DNA of 32,244 nt. Origin: Calidithermus chliarophilus DSM 9957 (GTDB lineage: Bacteria > Deinococcota > Deinococci > Deinococcales > Thermaceae). Shown piece by piece: positions 16,493 to 26,172 of the stretch (positions are counted from its first letter, which is position 1; every line of letters starts with the position of its first letter). Where the stretch lies: NCBI RefSeq assembly GCF_000430045.1, contig NZ_KE387023.1:2315229-2347472 (forward strand). Reading direction: 5' to 3'. Made by a program: the position numbers and the translations under genes. A model generated the notes under the pieces. The model searched no databases. It saw nothing but the letters and a program-made list of their open reading frames with translations, and was not told the DNA's origin.

Positions 16493-17670
16493 TGCTCCCC
16501 TCCGAACTGCTGCACTACACCGTGCGCGGCGGGCGGGCCACGCCCCGCTTCACCCGGCCCGAGAAGGGGTTGCCCTGGGCCGAGGGCGTGCTGCGGGTCA
16601 TCGGCGAGCACCTGAGCCGGCGGCGGGGGGAGCTCGAGGAGGCCCTGCTCGCGCTCGAGGGCGACTCCCCCGACTACAGCCTGGTGCGCGGCCTGGCCCA
16701 CTTGGCCCTGAACGAGGCCACCTTCGAGGTGCGCTCGCTCGTGGAGCCCGAGTTCCTGCGGCGCAAGGCCTTCACCCTGGCCGCCGGGCGCGGCTACGGC
16801 GAGCGCGAGGCCCTGGCCGTGCTGGGCGAGCTGGGGGAGGAGTTCAAGCTGGAAGGGGAGGTCCTGCGCGACGCCCTCTACGCCGACCTCCCCGAGAACC
16901 ACGTCCTGGTGTCGGTCCCCGACCTCACGCCCCAGGGGCTGCTCGAGCGCTACAACCTCGCCCAGGCCCAGGGGCTGCTGTACTACGCCACCGAGCTTGT
17001 CATCCAGGCCCACCGCAACACCTCGGGGCAGTACAAGCGGCTGTTCCGCTACCTCAAGTTCTACCGGCTGATGTGGGTGGTGGAGGGCGACCTCGACTCG
17101 GGCTACCGCGTGCACGTGGACGGCCCCAGCTCGCTCTTCGCCCAGACCCGCCGCTACGGCGTGCAGATGGCCGCGCTGCTGCCCGCCCTGCTCCACGTGA
17201 GCCAGTGGGAGCTGCTGGCGCGGCTCAACCTCCACGGCCAGGAGGTCGAGTACGCGCTCAGCTCGCGCAACAACCTCGTCTCGCACTACCCCAAGCCGCC
17301 CGAGTTCGACTCGATGCTCGAGGCCACCTTCGCCAAGCGTTGGGAGAAGCTGGGCAGCGAGTGGGCGCTCGAGCGCGAGGTGGAGGTGGTGGACCTCAAG
17401 GGCACCGTCTTCCTCCCCGACTTCGCCCTGCGCCACCCCGGCGGGCGCACCGTCTACGTCGAGATCGTGGGCTTCTGGCACCCCGAGTACCTGCGCCGCA
17501 AGTTCGAGAAGGTGCGAAAAGCGGGCCTGGACAACCTCGTGCTGGCCGTCTCCGAGCGGCTAAAAGTCAGCCGCGACGACCTCGAGGGCATCCTCGGCCC
17601 CGTGGTCTGGTTCAAGGGGCAGCTCGAGCCCAAGGCGGTGCTGGGGGTGCTGGGGGAGATGGGCCTGTGA
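16492..17670 (+). CDS. DUF790 / Bax1-like nuclease, partner of XPB helicase
   Basis: 392 aa. The N-terminal three quarters fits the DUF790 family (LLHYTVRGG..P.F, YNLAQAQGLLYYA, KRLFRYLKFYRLMW). The C-terminus has a PD-(D/E)xK-like nuclease core: PD at 309-310 (FLPDFALRHPGG) and Glu324 in VYVEIVGFW, followed by Lys-rich YLRRKFEKVRKAG and NLVLAVSE. Bax1 proteins bind XPB and cut DNA near bubble junctions in archaea; the same role is inferred here. Translational coupling through the TGATG overlap suggests equimolar synthesis with the helicase. Confidence 0.85.
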   Translation: MLPSELLHYTVRGGRATPRFTRPEKGLPWAEGVLRVIGEHLSRRRGELEEALLALEGDSPDYSLVRGLAHLALNEATFEVRSLVEPEFLRRKAFTLAAGRGYGEREALAVLGELGEEFKLEGEVLRDALYADLPENHVLVSVPDLTPQGLLERYNLAQAQGLLYYATELVIQAHRNTSGQYKRLFRYLKFYRLMWVVEGDLDSGYRVHVDGPSSLFAQTRRYGVQMAALLPALLHVSQWELLARLNLHGQEVEYALSSRNNLVSHYPKPPEFDSMLEATFAKRWEKLGSEWALEREVEVVDLKGTVFLPDFALRHPGGRTVYVEIVGFWHPEYLRRKFEKVRKAGLDNLVLAVSERLKVSRDDLEGILGPVVWFKGQLEPKAVLGVLGEMGL

Positions 17671-17716
17671 TACCCGATTCGGGTTAGTCCCGCGCCGAAC
17701 TGACCGAATCGGGTGT
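17670..17716. repeat. palindromic intergenic hairpin element
   Basis: Arms ACCCGATTCGG (17672-17682) and CCGAATCGGGT (17704-17714) are perfect complements; extended to 13 bp they carry one mismatch. The 21-nt centre also largely self-pairs. It begins immediately after the nuclease stop and may act as its terminator. A related, interrupted copy lies at 1393-1582. Confidence 0.6.
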
Positions 17717-17744
17717 AACGCGCTCGGGCCTCGAGCCGGGCGGC

Positions 17745-17774
17745 TTGACACGGTATACCAAAGCCCCGTAGACT
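17745..17774 (+). promoter_or_regulatory. promoter of the ilv-leu operon
   Basis: Perfect -35 TTGACA (17745-17750), 18-bp spacer, -10 TAGACT (17769-17774). The expected transcription start is about 17781-17785, at or just before the leader peptide ATG, so the leader is probably translated from a leaderless or near-leaderless end. Confidence 0.75.
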
Positions 17775-17784
17775 CACAGACAAG

Positions 17785-17859
17785 ATGCCTGCGAGCCTCG
17801 CCCTAACCCTAGTCGTAGTAGGCCTAGTAATTATTGGGCCTACCGGGGATAGGGTGTAG
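17785..17859 (+). CDS. ilvL: ilv operon leader peptide, rich in Leu/Val/Ile
   Basis: 24 codons, too short for routine gene calling. The product contains LALTLVVVGLVII: 4 Leu, 4 Val and 2 Ile within residues 5-17, the three end products of the pathway downstream. The regulated codons include CTA (three), GTA (three) and ATT (two), which are scarce in the neighbouring genes. No ribosome site is visible, but the ATG begins about 11 nt after the -10, fitting leaderless initiation. Stalling here should control termination at 17886-17916. Naming it ilvL is by role, not by sequence homology. Confidence 0.85.
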   Translation: MPASLALTLVVVGLVIIGPTGDRV

Positions 17860-17892
17860 CTGTACGAGCTTAAGCGCATCGCGAACCCCCGG
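17818..17892 (+). promoter_or_regulatory. ilv attenuator: pause hairpin and antiterminator pairing
   Basis: Segment 1, GTAGGCC (17818-17824, inside the Val-Gly-Leu codons), pairs exactly with segment 2, GGCCTAC (17837-17843). The adjoining CCGGGG (17843-17848) is complementary to CCCCGG (17887-17892), the 5' arm of the terminator. A ribosome stalled on the Val/Leu/Ile codons would cover segment 1, free 17843-17848 and break the terminator. Confidence 0.75.
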
Positions 17893-17916
17893 ATACTTCC
17901 CGGGGGAGTTTTTTTT
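17886..17916 (+). terminator. attenuator terminator before ilvB
   Basis: Perfect 7-bp stem CCCCCGG (17886-17892) / CCGGGGG (17900-17906) with a 7-nt loop, then AG and eight T residues (17909-17916): a strong intrinsic terminator 15 bp before the ilvB start. Confidence 0.92.
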
Positions 17917-17931
17917 GGAAGAGGAGCGTGT

Positions 17932-19620
17932 ATGAACGGAGCGGCGGCAATCCTGAAAGCGCTGGAGAAGCAGGGGGTGACCACCATCTTCGGGCACCCC
18001 GGGGGCACCATCATGCCCACCTACGATGCCCTCTACGACTCCCCCATCCGGCACATCCTGGTACGGCACGAGCAGGGCGGGGTCCATGCCGCCACCGCCT
18101 ATGCCCGCGCCAGCGGCAAGGTCGGCGTGGTGATGGCGACCTCGGGGCCAGGAGCCCTCAACCTCGTCACCGGGCTGCAGGACGCGCTGATGGACTCCAC
18201 CGCCGTCGTGGCCATCACCGGCAACGTCCCGCAGGCGCTCATCGGCACCGACGCCTTCCAGGAGGCCGACGTCTGCGGCATCACGCAGCCCGTCACCAAG
18301 CACAACTTCCAGATCCGCGACGTGCGCGACATCCCCCGCGTCATCGCCGAGGCCTTCTACATCGCGTCAACGGGCCGCCCGGGGCCGGTGCTGGTGGACA
18401 TCCCCAAGGACGTGCAGCTCGCGCCCTTCACCGGCAGCTTCGACGCCGAGATCGACCTCCCCGGCTACAAGCCCACCTTCAAGGGGCACCCCCGCCAGAT
18501 CGAGCGGGCGCTGGAGGCGCTCGAGAAGGCCCGCAAGCCCATCCTGATGGTGGGGGGCGGGGCCCAGCACGCCTCGAAGGAGGTCGTCGAGTTCGCCGAG
18601 AAGTCGGGCATCCCGGTGATCCCCACCCTGATGGGCCTGGGCGCTTTCCCCGGCACCCACCCGCAATTCCTGGGCATGCCCGGCATGCACGGCTCGGTGG
18701 CGGCCAACCGCTCCATCCAGTACGCCGACACCATCCTGGCCATCGGCCTGCGCTTCGACGACCGCGTCACCGGCAAGATCTCGCGCTTCGCCCCCAACGC
18801 CCACACCATCATCCACGTCGACATCGACCCCGCCGAGATCGGCAAGCTGGTCAACACCGCCATCCCCGTGGTGGGCGACGCCAAGTGGGTGGCCGCCGAG
18901 CTCGCCAAGGGCGCAAAGAAGCTGCGCCTGGACGAGTGGTGGCAGGAGGTGGACGCCTGGCGCACCCAGCACCCCTTTAGCTGGAAGCCCCAGCCCTACC
19001 TGCAGAGCCAGGAGGTCATCCACGCCTTCTGGGAGGCCACCGGGGGCAAGGCGGTGGTGACGTCGGGGGTGGGGCAGCACCAGATGTTCACCGCGCAGTT
19101 CTTCAAGTTCGACAAGCCCCGCTCGTGGATCAACTCCGGCGGGCTGGGCACGATGGGGGTGGGCCTGCCCTTCGCCATCGGCGCGGCGCTGGCGAGGCCG
19201 GGCGAGACCGTCATCGACTTCGACGGCGACGGCTCCTTCCAGATGACCCTGCAGGAGCTGGCCACGGTGAAGAAGTACAACCTCCCCGTCAAGATCGTCA
19301 TCCTCAACAACGGCTTTTTGGGCATGGTGCGGCAGTGGCAAGACCTCTTCCACGCCAAGCGCTACAGCGAGGTCTACCTCGCCGACTCCAACCCCGACTT
19401 CGCCAGGCTGGCCGAGGCCTACGGCATCAAGGGCGTGACCCTCGAGGACAAGTCCCGGCTGGCCGAGACCGTGCGGGAGGTGCTGGAGCACGACGGCCCG
19501 GTGCTGCTGGAGTGCCGCGTGCACCACGAGGAGGGCGTGTTCCCCATGATCCCTTCGGGCGGGGCCGCCGAGGACATGATCATCGAGAACCCGCGCGAGA
19601 CCGTCGAGGCAGGGGGCTAA
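17932..19620 (+). CDS. ilvB: acetolactate synthase, catalytic (large) subunit
   Basis: 562 aa. A ThDP- and FAD-dependent enzyme that condenses two pyruvates to acetolactate, or pyruvate with 2-oxobutyrate to acetohydroxybutyrate, the common step for valine, leucine and isoleucine. The activating Glu47 is in RHEQGGVHAATAYAR; GDGSFQMTLQELATVKKYNLP followed by ILNNGFLGMVRQWQ is the ThDP-Mg motif. The ATG at 17932 has a GGAAGAGGAG ribosome site. First structural gene after the attenuator. The separate regulatory subunit gene ilvN follows after an inserted cupin gene. Confidence 0.97.
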   Translation: MNGAAAILKALEKQGVTTIFGHPGGTIMPTYDALYDSPIRHILVRHEQGGVHAATAYARASGKVGVVMATSGPGALNLVTGLQDALMDSTAVVAITGNVPQALIGTDAFQEADVCGITQPVTKHNFQIRDVRDIPRVIAEAFYIASTGRPGPVLVDIPKDVQLAPFTGSFDAEIDLPGYKPTFKGHPRQIERALEALEKARKPILMVGGGAQHASKEVVEFAEKSGIPVIPTLMGLGAFPGTHPQFLGMPGMHGSVAANRSIQYADTILAIGLRFDDRVTGKISRFAPNAHTIIHVDIDPAEIGKLVNTAIPVVGDAKWVAAELAKGAKKLRLDEWWQEVDAWRTQHPFSWKPQPYLQSQEVIHAFWEATGGKAVVTSGVGQHQMFTAQFFKFDKPRSWINSGGLGTMGVGLPFAIGAALARPGETVIDFDGDGSFQMTLQELATVKKYNLPVKIVILNNGFLGMVRQWQDLFHAKRYSEVYLADSNPDFARLAEAYGIKGVTLEDKSRLAETVREVLEHDGPVLLECRVHHEEGVFPMIPSGGAAEDMIIENPRETVEAGG

Positions 19621-19624
19621 CCCC

Positions 19625-19983
19625 ATGCAGGAAAAGGTCGTCAACCTGGCACAGAAGTTCTCCCTGTTCTCCGAGCATTGGTCCCCCAAGCTCGTGGCCC
19701 GCATGAACGATTACGAGTTCAAGCTGGTCAGGATTCAGGGCGACTTCGTGTGGCACAAGCACGAGGACACCGACGAGGTGTTTATCGTTCTCGAGGGAGA
19801 GATGCGCATTGACTTCCGCGATGGGCCGGTACACCTCAAAGCCGGGGAGTTGCTCGTGGTGCCCAAAAACGTCGAGCACAAGCCCTACGCCGAGCAGGAG
19901 TGCAAGGTCATGCTGGTCGAGCCAGTGGGCGTGGTGAACACCGGCGATGCCGGGGGCGCGTTGACCGCCGAGGTGGAGGCGAT

Positions 19984-19987
<4 letters not shown>
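19625..19987 (+). CDS. cupin-domain protein inside the ilv operon
   Basis: 120 aa single-domain cupin. Motif 1 is complete (Gly39, His44, His46, Glu51, Gly58) and motif 2 carries Gly74, Pro80 and His85, so a bound divalent metal is likely. It starts 5 bp after the ilvB stop and its stop overlaps the ilvN start (ATGA at 19984-19987), so it is co-translated with both synthase subunits. Similar small cupins are annotated only by domain. A role in metabolite binding, isomerisation or protection of the synthase is conceivable, but nothing in the sequence fixes it. Confidence 0.88.
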
Positions 19988-21580
<1,593 letters not shown>

Positions 21581-21583
<3 letters not shown>

Positions 21584-21650
21584 TAGCTCATGGCCCATGG
21601 CCGATAGCCCGATAACCCCTGCCATGAGCGATTCGCTATCGGCCATGAGC
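21581..21650. repeat. GATAGC/CATGAGC intergenic inverted repeats between ilvC and leuA
   Basis: CATGGCCGATAGC (21596-21608) and GCTATCGGCCATG (21635-21647) are perfect 13-bp complements. GCTCATGGC (21586-21594) also pairs with either GCCATGAGC copy (21621-21629 or 21642-21650), so alternative hairpins are possible. No T-tract follows, so it is not an obvious terminator. Confidence 0.7.
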
Positions 21651-21667
21651 GGAAACCGGAGGTTTCC
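21651..21667 (+). promoter_or_regulatory. leuA: hairpin enclosing the leuA ribosome-binding site
   Basis: GGAAACC (21651-21657) and GGTTTCC (21661-21667) are perfect complements around a GGA loop, immediately before the leuA ATG at 21668. The ribosome site GGAGG (21658-21662) spans the loop and the start of the 3' arm. Confidence 0.5.
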
Positions 21668-23227
21668 ATGAGGCACATCCGAATCTTCGACACCACGCTT
21701 CGGGACGGGGAGCAGTCGCCCGGCGTAGCCCTTTCCCTGCAGCAGAAGCTCGAGATCGCCCACGCCCTGGCCCGGCTGGGCGTGGACATCATCGAGGCGG
21801 GCTTCCCGGTGAACGGGGCGAGCGAGTTCGAGTGCGTGCACAAGATCGCCCGCGAGGTGCGGGGACCGGTGATCTGCGGGCTCGCCCGCACCCACAAGCT
21901 CGACATCGAGCGGGCCGCCGCCGCGCTCGAGCCCGCCGAGAAGCGCCGCATCCACGTCTTCACCAGCGCCAGCCGGGTGCACCTGGAGTACATGCTCAAG
22001 AAGACCCCCGAGCAGATCCTCGAGCTCACCGACGAGATGGTGCGCTACGCCCGCAACTTCACCGACGACGTGGAGTTCAGCGCCCAGGACGTGATGCGCG
22101 CCGACTTCGACTTCGTGCTGCGCCTCTACGAGACCGCCATCGCCGCCGGGGCCACCACCATCAACATCCCCGACACCACCGGCTACGGCACGCCGCTGGA
22201 GTACGGCGCCCTCATCAAGCGCATCCACGACGAGGTGGTGCGCGGGCGCGACGTGCACATCTCCGCCCACTGCCACGACGACCTGGGCATGGCCACCGCC
22301 AACAGCCTGGCGGCGGTGGAGAACGGCGCGACCCAGATCGAGTGCACCGTCAACGGCATCGGGGAGCGGGCCGGGAACACCGCTTTGGAGGAAGTGGTCA
22401 TGGCGATCTACACCCGCCGCGACCACTACCAGGCCGAGACCCGGATCAACACCCGCGAGATCTACCGCGTCAGCCGCATGGTCGAGCGCTACACCGGCAT
22501 GGTGGTGCAGCCCAACAAGGCCATCGTGGGCGACAACGCCTTCGCCCACGAGTCGGGCATCCACCAGGACGGCGTGATCAAGAACAAAGAGACCTACGAG
22601 ATCATGAACGCCGAGATGGTCGGGCGCGAGGCCGCCGTGCTGGTGCTGGGCAAGCACTCGGGCCGAGCCGCCGTCAAGAAAGCCCTGCAGGACCTGGGCT
22701 ACGAGCTCGGCGAGAGCCAGATGCAGGCGGTGTTCCAGCGCTTCCGCGAGATCGTCGACCGCAAGGGGCCCATCAGCACCGAAGAGCTGCGGGCCTTGGT
22801 CGAGAGCGAAACCGCGCCCACCGCGCACCTGTTCAGCATCGAGCAGCTCCAGTTCTTCTCCGGCTACGGCATGCTGCCCACCGCCACCGTGCGCCTGAAG
22901 ACCCCCGAGGGCGAGGTGACCACTACGGCCATCGGCGACGGGCCGGTGGACGCGGTCTACAAGGCGCTCGCCGAGGCCATCGAGATCCAGCCGGAGCTCG
23001 AGCTCTACCGCGTGGAGGCCGTCACCGGCACCACCGAGGCGCTGGGCGAGGTCACGGTCAAGCTCAAGCTGGGCGAAGTCCTCGCCACCGGCCACGGCAT
23101 CTCGCCCGACATCATCGAGGCTTCGGCACGCGCCTACCTCGACGCGGCCAACAAGCTGGTGGCCGGGCAGGCGGCCAAGCACCCGCCGAGCCTGGACGAG
23201 GTGCAGATCAAGGGCATCGTCCGGTGA
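21668..23227 (+). CDS. leuA: 2-isopropylmalate synthase
   Basis: 519 aa, the usual length for bacterial LeuA. Condenses 2-oxoisovalerate with acetyl-CoA, the first committed step to leucine. The catalytic TIM barrel opens with FDTTLRDGEQSPG (Arg12-Asp13); the metal-binding pair is His201 and His203 (AHCHDDLGMA), followed by CTVNGIGERAGNTALEEV. A subdomain and a C-terminal LeuA dimer domain (from about 390) are present, the site of leucine feedback inhibition. The Leu/Val/Ile attenuator upstream and the ribosome-site hairpin are the visible controls. Confidence 0.96.
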   Translation: MRHIRIFDTTLRDGEQSPGVALSLQQKLEIAHALARLGVDIIEAGFPVNGASEFECVHKIAREVRGPVICGLARTHKLDIERAAAALEPAEKRRIHVFTSASRVHLEYMLKKTPEQILELTDEMVRYARNFTDDVEFSAQDVMRADFDFVLRLYETAIAAGATTINIPDTTGYGTPLEYGALIKRIHDEVVRGRDVHISAHCHDDLGMATANSLAAVENGATQIECTVNGIGERAGNTALEEVVMAIYTRRDHYQAETRINTREIYRVSRMVERYTGMVVQPNKAIVGDNAFAHESGIHQDGVIKNKETYEIMNAEMVGREAAVLVLGKHSGRAAVKKALQDLGYELGESQMQAVFQRFREIVDRKGPISTEELRALVESETAPTAHLFSIEQLQFFSGYGMLPTATVRLKTPEGEVTTTAIGDGPVDAVYKALAEAIEIQPELELYRVEAVTGTTEALGEVTVKLKLGEVLATGHGISPDIIEASARAYLDAANKLVAGQAAKHPPSLDEVQIKGIVR

Positions 23228-23252
23228 GCGTACGAGCCAGGGAGGCCGGGTC

Positions 23253-23552
23253 GTGATCTTCGAGGTGGCGGATCTTCGCGTGAAGGATGAGCTGACGACC
23301 GAGTTCGAGTCGGCGTTGGCACACTTGGCGCAGCGCTTCTCGAGCCTTCCCGCCTACCTGGCCCACGAGCTCCAGCGTAGCCTCGAGGGCAACCGCTACC
23401 TCTTGCTGCTCGCCCTCGGCAATGAGCGGGACAAGCCGGCTTTCCTCGAGGCTTTCGCGCCCGTGGCTGCCGTGCTCGAGACCTTTCTGGAAGCGCCTCT
23501 GCGCCTCGAGTCCTTCAAACGTGTCCTTCTGTCCGGCCCGGGAAATGGGTAG
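23253..23552 (+). CDS. small ABM-like (ferredoxin-fold) protein, unknown function
   Basis: 99 aa; GTG start at 23253 with a GGGAGG ribosome site. Pattern of a dimeric alpha-beta barrel protein (ABM-like): strand IFEVADLRV, helix DELTTEFESALAHLAQRFSSL, strand AYLAHELQRSLEGNRYLLLLALG, helix FLEAFAPVAAVLETFL. It resembles the second small protein at 23778 in layout, but key residues differ. The assignment rests on secondary-structure pattern only. 25 bp after leuA, probably co-transcribed. Confidence 0.65.
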   Translation: MIFEVADLRVKDELTTEFESALAHLAQRFSSLPAYLAHELQRSLEGNRYLLLLALGNERDKPAFLEAFAPVAAVLETFLEAPLRLESFKRVLLSGPGNG

Positions 23553-23777: not shown

Positions 23778-24071
23778 ATGGTCCTCGAGTCCGCCTACCT
23801 CAGCGTCAAGCCCGGCCAGGAGCCGGAGTTCGAAGCCGCTTTCGCCCGGGCGTCGGCCCTGATCGCCTCGACCTCCGGCTACCGCTGGCACCGGCTGCAC
23901 CGCACCCTCGAGGACCCCAGCCTCTACCTGCTGCTCGTGGAGTGGGACACGCTCGAGGCCCACACCGTCGGCTTCCGGCAGTCGCCGCGGTATCAGGACT
24001 GGAAAAAGCTGCTCCACCACTTCTACGAACCCTTTCCCACCGTATGGCACCACACCCAGGTATACCCGTGA
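23778..24071 (+). CDS. ABM-domain (antibiotic biosynthesis monooxygenase-like) protein
   Basis: 97 aa with GGGAGG ribosome site. Typical ABM domain order: VLESAYLSVKPGQEPEFEAAFARA, then GYRWHRLHRTLEDPSLYLLLVEWDTLEAH, then a C-terminal helix/strand ending FYEPFPTVWHH. Such dimeric barrels include cofactor-free oxygenases, heme-handling proteins and proteins of no known activity; the substrate is not evident. Its stop overlaps the GTG start of the acetyltransferase (GTGA at 24068-24071). Confidence 0.8.
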   Translation: MVLESAYLSVKPGQEPEFEAAFARASALIASTSGYRWHRLHRTLEDPSLYLLLVEWDTLEAHTVGFRQSPRYQDWKKLLHHFYEPFPTVWHHTQVYP

Positions 24072-24589
24072 CCATCCGCCCGGCCCGCCCCGACGACGCC
24101 CCCGCCGTCGCCCGCGTCCACGTGGACTCCTGGCGCGAGACCTACTCAGGTCTGGTCCCCGGCGACTTCCTGGCCTCGCTCTCCTACGAGCGGCGCGAGC
24201 AGATGTGGCGCAGCGGGCTCGAGCACCCCGGCTGGAAGGGCGTGCTGTTCGTGGCGGAAGACCCCGAACACGGGGTCGTGGGCTTCGTGGCCGGTGGCCC
24301 GCCGCAAGAGCCTGATGGGGAGTTTTCCTGCGAGCTGTGGGCCATCTATCTCCTGCGGGCACACCAGGGAAAGGGAACCGGGGGGCAGCTCTTCCGGCGC
24401 TTCGTGGAGGAGATGGCCTCGAGGGGCCATTCCTCCATGCTGCTGTGGGTGCTGGCCGAGAACCCGACCACGAACTTTTACGAGCACATGGGCGGGGTGA
24501 GGGTGCGCGAGAGGGAGATCGAGGTCGGGGGGAAGAAGCTGGTGGAGTGGGCGTACGGCTGGCGCGACCTGAGGGGGAGTGAGGCGTGA
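24068..24589 (+). CDS. GNAT-family N-acetyltransferase
   Basis: 173 aa from the GTG at 24068, which overlaps the upstream stop. A GNAT fold begins TIRPARPDDAPAVARVHVDSWRETYSGLVP. The acetyl-CoA pyrophosphate loop is ELWAIYLLRAHQGKGTGGQLFRRF (Q/R-x-x-G-x-G/A = HQGKGTG), then LWVLAENPTTNFYEHMGGV. The longer in-frame reading from 23942 would run over the ABM gene and is not used. The substrate (small molecule or protein) cannot be told. It also overlaps the cimA start (GTGA at 24586-24589), so translation is coupled through three genes. Confidence 0.87.
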   Translation: MTIRPARPDDAPAVARVHVDSWRETYSGLVPGDFLASLSYERREQMWRSGLEHPGWKGVLFVAEDPEHGVVGFVAGGPPQEPDGEFSCELWAIYLLRAHQGKGTGGQLFRRFVEEMASRGHSSMLLWVLAENPTTNFYEHMGGVRVREREIEVGGKKLVEWAYGWRDLRGSEA

Positions 24590-26172
24590 TCGAAATTCTG
24601 GACACCACACTGCGAGACGGCACCCAGGGGCAGGCCGTGAGCCTCTCCAGCGACGACAAGGTGGCCATCGCCCGGCGGCTGGCGGCCTTCGGCGTGCCCC
24701 TCGTCGAGGGCGGCTGGCCGGGGTCGAACCCCAAGGACGCCGAGTTCTTCGCTCGCATGAAGGGCGTGGACCTGGGCCAGACCCGGCTGGTGGCCTTCGG
24801 CTCGACCCGGCGCAAGGGGCTGAGGCCACAGGACGACGCTTCGGTGCAGGCCATGCTGGGGGCCCGCACCCCGGTGGTCACGGTGGTCGCCAAGTCCTGG
24901 GACTTCCACGTGAGGGAGGCGCTCGAGGTGAGCCTGGAGGAGAACCTGCGCATGATCGAGGAGACCTACGCCTACCTGGTGAGCCAGGGACGGCGGGTCA
25001 TCCACGACGCCGAGCACTTCTTCGACGGCTTCAAGGCCAACCGGGGCTACGCCCTCGCGACGCTCGAGGCCGCCGTGCGTGGCGGGGCCGACACGCTGTG
25101 CCTGTGCGACACCAACGGCGGCAGCCTGCCCGAGGAGGTCGCCGAGATCACCCGCGCTGTCGTGGAGGCCTTCCCAAGCGTTCGCATCGGCATCCACCCC
25201 CACAACGACGGGGAACTGGCCGTCGCCAACGCGCTGGCCGCCGTGCGAGCCGGGGCGACCCACGTGCAGGGCACCATCAACGGCTACGGCGAGCGCTGCG
25301 GCAACCTCAACCTCACCAGCACCATCCCCAACCTGATCCTCAAGTACGGGCTCGAGCTAGAGGGCATCAGCCGGGAGAAGCTCTCGGAACTGCGCGAGGT
25401 CTCGCACTACGTGGACGAGCGGGCCAACCTCACCCCCAACCTGCGGGCGCCTTACGTGGGCGACGCGGCCTTCGCGCACAAAGGCGGCATCCACGTCTCG
25501 GCGGTGCTGAAGAACCCGCGCACCTACGAGCACGTGCCCCCCGAGGCGGTCGGCAACACCCGCCGGGTGCTGGTCTCCGACCTCTCGGGCCGAAGCAACC
25601 TGCTCGCCAAGTTGGCCGAGGCCGGGGTGCAGGTGCCTAAGGAGACGGCGGGGGCGCTCTTGGAGGAGGTCAAGCAGCTCGAGCACGCCGGCTACTCCTT
25701 CGAGGGCGCCGAGGCGAGCTTCTACCTGCTGGCTCACCGGCTGCGCGGTGGCAAGCTCCCCTTCGAGCTGATGGGTTTCAGCGTGTTCATGCACGCCAAC
25801 GACGACCGCCCCGACACCCCCACCTGGGCCGAGGCCACGGTGCGGGTGAAGGTAGGGGAGAGCGTGCAGCACACGGCGGGGGAGAGCAAGTTCGGCCCGG
25901 TCTCGGCGCTCGACGTGGCCTTTCGCAAGGCGGTGCAGGCCTTCTACCCCGAGATCGGCGAGATCGAGCTCTCCGACTACAAGATGCGCATCCTCAGCGG
26001 GCAGGAGAGCGGCACCTCGAGCGGGGTGCGCGTCATGATCGAGATGCACCGCGCCGGCGAGCGCTGGACCACCGTAGGCGCGAGCCGCAACAGCCTCGAG
26101 GCCTCCCTCAAGGCCCTCACCGACGGCTACGCCTACGCGCTGGTGAAAGCTCAGCCGGTGCCGCAGGATTGA
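24586..26172 (+). CDS. cimA: citramalate synthase (LeuA-like)
   Basis: 528 aa from GTG at 24586. Condenses pyruvate with acetyl-CoA to (R)-citramalate, the threonine-independent entry to isoleucine. The LeuA-type barrel opens with LDTTLRDGTQGQAVSLS (Arg10-Asp11); metal ligands are His204 and His206 (GIHPHNDGELAVAN), followed by GTINGYGERCGNLNL. The segments GGWPGSNPKD, HDAEHFFDGFKANRGYA and CDTNGG distinguish the CimA group from LeuA and homocitrate synthase. A C-terminal regulatory domain is present (from about 385). Terminal gene of the operon, converging on the glycosyltransferase gene. Confidence 0.9.
   Translation: MIEILDTTLRDGTQGQAVSLSSDDKVAIARRLAAFGVPLVEGGWPGSNPKDAEFFARMKGVDLGQTRLVAFGSTRRKGLRPQDDASVQAMLGARTPVVTVVAKSWDFHVREALEVSLEENLRMIEETYAYLVSQGRRVIHDAEHFFDGFKANRGYALATLEAAVRGGADTLCLCDTNGGSLPEEVAEITRAVVEAFPSVRIGIHPHNDGELAVANALAAVRAGATHVQGTINGYGERCGNLNLTSTIPNLILKYGLELEGISREKLSELREVSHYVDERANLTPNLRAPYVGDAAFAHKGGIHVSAVLKNPRTYEHVPPEAVGNTRRVLVSDLSGRSNLLAKLAEAGVQVPKETAGALLEEVKQLEHAGYSFEGAEASFYLLAHRLRGGKLPFELMGFSVFMHANDDRPDTPTWAEATVRVKVGESVQHTAGESKFGPVSALDVAFRKAVQAFYPEIGEIELSDYKMRILSGQESGTSSGVRVMIEMHRAGERWTTVGASRNSLEASLKALTDGYAYALVKAQPVPQD

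Follow-up and report, generated by a model that had tools for sequence, protein, structure and literature searches.

Why does a cupin gene stand between the genes for the two subunits of acetolactate synthase? In the window (the whole 32,244-nucleotide stretch that was analysed), a reading frame at 19625-19987 on the + strand, with an ATG start, lies between ilvB, the large-subunit gene (17932-19620, +; 562 aa; TIGR00118, 779 bits; three TPP-enzyme domains), and ilvN, the small-subunit gene (19984-20496, +; 170 aa; TIGR00119, 205 bits; ALS_ss_C/ACT_AHAS_ss). It encodes a single-domain cupin of 120 aa. Does this protein belong to the synthase, does it serve the pathway in another way, or is it a guest in the operon?

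The gene, its protein and the ilv operon

The ilvB stop codon (TAA) ends at 19620 and the cupin ATG follows after 4 nt (CCCC). The preliminary description, correct in the coordinates of the gene and in placing it directly downstream of ilvB, had counted this spacing as 5 bp. At the other end the cupin TGA overlaps the ilvN ATG in an ATGA at 19984-19987, as had been noted. Single copies of ilvB, of ilvN and of the cupin family are present in the window's genome (4.69 Mb in 9 contigs, grouping with the 50 Thermaceae genomes searched), the runner-up cupin match being 39% identical over 44 residues (E 0.001). The reading frame is a real gene, because another Thermaceae genome (G011) carries an 83% identical copy at the corresponding position, with a dN/dS of 0.08.

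The protein is a member of the cupin superfamily (Cupin_2, PF07883, 50.7 bits against a Pfam cut-off of 27.2), and a double-stranded beta-helix is predicted (AlphaFold2 pLDDT 92.2; Z 18.4 to PDB 3d82, whose family it shares). The metal site is complete, in agreement with the preliminary description: H44, H46, E51 and H85 form the HxH...E...H motif. Among 31 aligned relatives, F41, W43, H44, H46, D50, F53, G58, P80, H85, E99, T106 and T114 are invariant, and E51 is conserved in at least 90%. The invariant residues would represent the full metal site together with others that seem to mark the active site or the C-terminus of the family. Which enzyme might this be? Pfam returned only generic cupin families and NCBIfam no named enzyme; acetolactate decarboxylase and other named enzymes were thus set aside. 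NCBIfam matched only 3-hydroxyanthranilate 3,4-dioxygenase (NbaC), which was rejected because the scores of 23.8 and 22.5 bits fall far short of the cut-offs of 220 and 145.95, respectively. The cupin is probably a metal-dependent small-molecule enzyme.

Upstream of ilvB is a promoter-like site, TTGACA-18-TAGACT (17745-17774, +; 10 of 12 matches, mean of 0.3 in shuffled sequences), the only one found within 17650-23300; in several relatives a similar site was seen by eye 5' of ilvB. Next comes a candidate leader peptide of 24 residues rich in Leu, Val and Ile, MPASLALTLVVVGLVIIGPTGDRV (17785-17859, +), with many CTA codons, and then a hairpin resembling an intrinsic terminator (17886-17916, +; 7 G-C pairs) with a T-run in its tail, AGTTTTTTTT, which lies between the leader and ilvB; terminator-like sites in the region number 4, against 3.0 in shuffles. 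A comparable leader frame precedes ilvB in eight of ten Thermaceae upstream regions as judged by a script filter, which G005 and G001 failed, and such leaders occur whether or not the cupin is present. Within 17600-21700, the leader region 17745-17916 included, no match attained the cut-off of an Rfam family, and the open-access literature gave no report of leader-peptide attenuation of branched-chain genes in Thermus. Co-expression of the cupin with ilvBN is well supported, because the one promoter-like site and the ilv-type leader and terminator lie upstream; the genes would be co-transcribed, and the cupin may come under ilv attenuation control. Tight spacing, the sole promoter-like site and the ATGA overlap, which is kept in both carriers, thus uphold the earlier claim that synthesis of the cupin keeps pace with that of the enzyme complex.

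Downstream of ilvN are ilvC (ketol-acid reductoisomerase; 20561-21583, +; profile search) and leuA (2-isopropylmalate synthase; 21668-23227, +; HMGL-like and LeuA_dimer domains). About 1.4 kb beyond leuA lies a citramalate/2-isopropylmalate-synthase-like gene with the same domains (24586-26172, +), called cimA here from its domains and position. Two small genes resembling antibiotic-biosynthesis monooxygenases (23253-23552 and 23778-24071) are present between leuA and a GNAT acetyltransferase gene with an RVHV.SW.ETY-like motif, which adjoins the cimA-like gene (the pair spanning 23942-26172). A GNAT with a similar motif is also found near a cimA-like gene in two Deinococcota of other families (L121:7573-10916 and L122:2863-5485).

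Distribution and age of the arrangement

The preliminary description had suggested that the cupin may be an accessory part of the synthase or regulate it, and that related genomes be searched for a conserved ilvB-cupin-ilvN order. The order was found in only two of 50 Thermaceae genomes, the window's and G011, and ilvB and ilvN are present in all 50. The absence from close relatives was therefore borne out, one of the two points that were to count against the suggested role, and that role is not supported. In the other 48 (including G042, with a partial ilvN match), the alignments of ilvB and ilvN overlap by as much as 7 bases or lie up to 124 bases apart, which leaves no room for a cupin; G003, of the same genus, has a gap of 25 bases. 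Cupin matches at E <= 1e-5 occur in three of the 50 genomes, the third being a weak one (40%) located elsewhere in G001, and at the phylum level the family is present in 12 of 111 genomes (E <= 1e-15). The ilvB-ilvN gaps of 13 relatives that lack the cupin, when scanned for remnants of it, gave only matches of chance length (7-10 bases). A cupin together with ilvB and ilvN was not found reported in the open-access literature. The second carrier is a metagenome-assembled genome (contig JADMIM010000081.1 of MAG015) in which ilvN is split over two contigs; its cupin is without an in-frame ATG near the start, where TTG or ATT are possible start codons.

How old is the arrangement? Between the two carriers the cupins differ at silent positions as deeply as ilvB: pS is 0.61 and fourfold identity 23/42 for the cupins, against 0.48 and 158/262 for ilvB. 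By comparison, ilvB of the window's genome and of G003 have a fourfold identity of 230/290 (0.79), against 0.55 for the carriers' cupins. The dN/dS is 0.08 for the cupin and 0.12 for ilvB. Because the silent divergence is as deep as that of ilvB and the dN/dS so low, the ilvB-cupin-ilvN order is old and maintained under purifying selection. A recent transfer between the two carriers was rejected, as the synonymous divergence of the cupin equals or exceeds that of ilvB and is far greater than the ilvB divergence between the window's genome and G003; the cupin value is near saturation and drawn from 42 sites only. The two Thermaceae cupins pair with a support of 96 in a tree of 57 rows and of 61 as a group in one of 126 rows, where the columns are few and many forks open. 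In the host tree the sister of G011 is G005, and the nearest relatives of the window's genome are G002 and G003, all three without the cupin. On the host trees the order would have arisen either by an ancestral insertion that was later lost four to five times, or by two gains of the same cassette.

Base composition has a bearing on this. In the window the GC3 of the cupin is 0.86, against 0.95-0.97 for ilvB, ilvN, ilvC and leuA; in G011 it is 0.74, close to the 0.79 of ilvB. A recent arrival was considered from the low GC of the window's cupin, which is a weak sign because the dip is largely at second positions (0.29), an effect of protein composition.

If the cupin were bound to the synthase, traces of adaptation might be expected in the subunits. 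Residues private to both carriers number none in IlvB and one in IlvN, in a comparison that could miss a small interface; five control pairs gave 0-1 in IlvB and IlvN, and IlvC and LeuA also gave 0-1.

Operon contexts of the family and the role of the cupin

In what neighbourhoods are relatives of the cupin found? The 126 distinct loci compared comprise 12 from Deinococcota, 45 from a genome scan of other phyla and 69 from three sampled phyla (loci fetched per matches: 30/34 in the phylum of G111, 12/12 in that of G112 and 30/58 in that of G113). Neighbouring reading frames come from an in-house script, which misses some genes, among them the window's cupin and the start of its ilvN. Outside Deinococcota, none of 114 loci has ilvB, ilvN, ilvC, leuA or cimA near the cupin; the flanks covered reach 5 kb at most in 45 of them and about 1.5 kb in the other 69. 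Within the phylum, G056 and G057 have a cupin of another clade next to a cimA-like gene, a GNAT gene being present too, and the G056 locus also holds ilvC and leuA. Two cupin clades would thus have used branched-chain loci in Deinococcota, ilvBN in one case and leuA/cimA in the other, and this hints at a link with the pathway.

Elsewhere the family enters other core operons. Of the 30 actinobacterial loci fetched (from 34 matches in 396 genomes), 14 have the order purL-cupin-purF; both flanks were identified by NCBIfam in L146, where purL is cut by the end of the locus and falls below its cut-off, and in the remaining loci the assignment is by blastp clustering. In L160 purF is the second gene after the cupin, 426 bases away, and L214 shows by eye the run purC, purS, purQ, purL, cupin. 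The purL-cupin-purF order is stable in a group of Actinomycetota (L214, L139, L141, L143-L152, L154 and L160), and the cupin frequently overlaps purL by 4 bases. A Marinimicrobia genome has purF-cupin-purD (L024). The cupin lies between the pyruvate dehydrogenase E2 gene and lpd in L203, where this was confirmed, and also in L206 as read by eye, and L195 has E2 upstream. In the wider 15 kb views L208 (5800-8879) and L209 (5582-8646) it is located between E2 and E3 genes, with E1 upstream and lipA downstream. There are also ispF-cupin-gltX in L140 (confirmed), similar loci with ispD and gltX in L142 and L153 (by eye), and argD-cupin-argF' (N-acetylornithine carbamoyltransferase) in L039, both flanks of which score somewhat below NCBIfam cut-offs. 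In the open-access literature no report was found of a cupin in purF/purL operons or in pyruvate dehydrogenase or purine contexts.

By the script's count, the sister clade has 27 of its 48 members embedded between two same-strand genes less than 100 bases away, the window's clade 10 of 51 and the remaining loci 1 of 27. With only 10 of 51 so placed (25 are embedded on neither side), the window's clade shows little of the operon habit, which belongs mainly to the sister clade. Many proteobacterial members of the window's clade are instead preceded by a regulator of the AraC type (a cluster of 12 loci, three of them checked with Pfam). In L178, L184, L189, L190, L191, L196 and L197 this regulator has a cupin-like sensor domain of its own. 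Since the purine and branched-chain contexts recall those of RidA, a replacement of RidA was considered, and rejected: RidA (PF01042) is present in all eight Thermaceae genomes tested, both carriers included.

What, then, is the cupin doing? We think it somewhat probable that it is a free-standing, metal-dependent single-domain cupin and a guest in the ilvBN operon, not a subunit or obligatory partner of the synthase. A co-expressed guest is the more likely because nearly all close relatives are without it and the family sits in unrelated operons elsewhere. The gene would have been captured a single time, long ago, between ilvB and ilvN, either in a Thermaceae ancestor or in an early donor. 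Purifying selection may have kept it there in two lineages because the site offers strong, amino-acid-responsive and translationally coupled expression. The protein would work apart from IlvBN and profit from the expression of the operon, in keeping with what appears to be a habit of its family, whose members elsewhere have settled within operons of core biosynthesis (pur, pdh, isp, arg). Against this reading weigh the few embedded members of the window's own clade, the two branched-chain loci of Deinococcota and the gains or losses that the host trees demand.

That the cupin binds IlvBN and tunes or stabilizes it, as a subunit or allosteric partner, is very improbable. Its position exactly between both subunit genes, translationally coupled in both carriers, is what this idea would predict, but it is opposed by the rarity and dispensability of the gene in Thermaceae, by an IlvB and IlvN that show no more shared residues than control pairs do, and by relatives whose genes separate subunits or steps of other, unrelated enzymes. 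A regulator of IlvBN that is dispensable and peculiar to these lineages is a possible variant. Could the cupin instead be a neutral hitch-hiker, acquired horizontally, that landed compatibly in the operon and has no relevant role? This is quite unlikely: the sporadic distribution and the GC3 of the window's copy agree with it, but the low dN/dS at such a depth of silent divergence, the intact metal site and family motifs, and a GC3 close to that of ilvB in G011 do not.

The best rival is an accessory that is co-regulated with ilvBN but does not bind the enzyme, and that acts on acetolactate, on a spontaneous breakdown product such as diacetyl, or on a side product of pyruvate chemistry. It is the best because Deinococcota used branched-chain loci twice and because the sister clade is found in the operon of pyruvate dehydrogenase, also a pyruvate enzyme; the tight coupling, the shared leader and terminator and an arrangement both old and selected are in its favour as well. 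Still, we consider it unlikely, given the 48 Thermaceae without the cupin at this junction, the lack of ilv, leu and cimA genes around it in other phyla, and purine, arginine and isoprenoid operons that have no such metabolite. The action on an unstable acetohydroxy acid that the preliminary description had offered as an alternative would likewise not be needed, as family members occur in purine, pyruvate dehydrogenase, isoprenoid and arginine operons. A more general thought is that 3d82-type cupins form a metabolite-repair or metabolite-protecting family, posted independently by different phyla inside core operons, which deals with an intermediate or cofactor, shared across primary metabolism, that is unstable or has been damaged. 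This would fit all contexts, with no common substrate evident, and is put forward as a rather doubtful proposal.

The guest reading carries a caution: a gene between two subunit genes need not encode a subunit. Repeated placement in different core operons names concrete pathways in which to look for a substrate, and a thermophile with the ilvB-cupin-ilvN order offers a compact deletion test.

Comparison with known cupins and with ilv attenuation

The closest structure is PDB 3d82, the cupin-2 protein sfri_3543 of Shewanella frigidimarina, a structural genomics entry with no function assigned. It is 61-62% identical to the window's cupin (Z 18.4; rmsd 1.0 A over 101 residues), but the solved chain has 102 residues and the window's protein about 20 more at the C-terminus, with a conserved NTG motif. 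PDB 2i45 (NMB1881 of Neisseria meningitidis), also from structural genomics and without a function, has the same fold and belongs to the same family (36-37% identity, Z 15.8); its metal motif is partly altered in the alignment (WHTHGYSDKV versus WHKHEDTDEV in the window's cupin), so it may not bind metal alike. For the 3d82 family solved structures were thus found, but no function, and the open-access literature yielded nothing on the 3D82 cupin. In such a family a tightly coupled placement in operons gives functional leads.

Single-domain cupins with metal chemistry and a known function include TM1459 (Mn), KdgF, hydroquinone 1,2-dioxygenase PnpCD and DddK. They share the double-stranded beta-helix (Z about 11-12.5) but are only 12-22% identical to the window's cupin, and a common fold by itself shows no function. 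Control of the ilv operon through a leader peptide is the classical mechanism of attenuation, and the window has the same order of elements: a leader frame rich in branched-chain codons, then a terminator-like hairpin, then ilvB.
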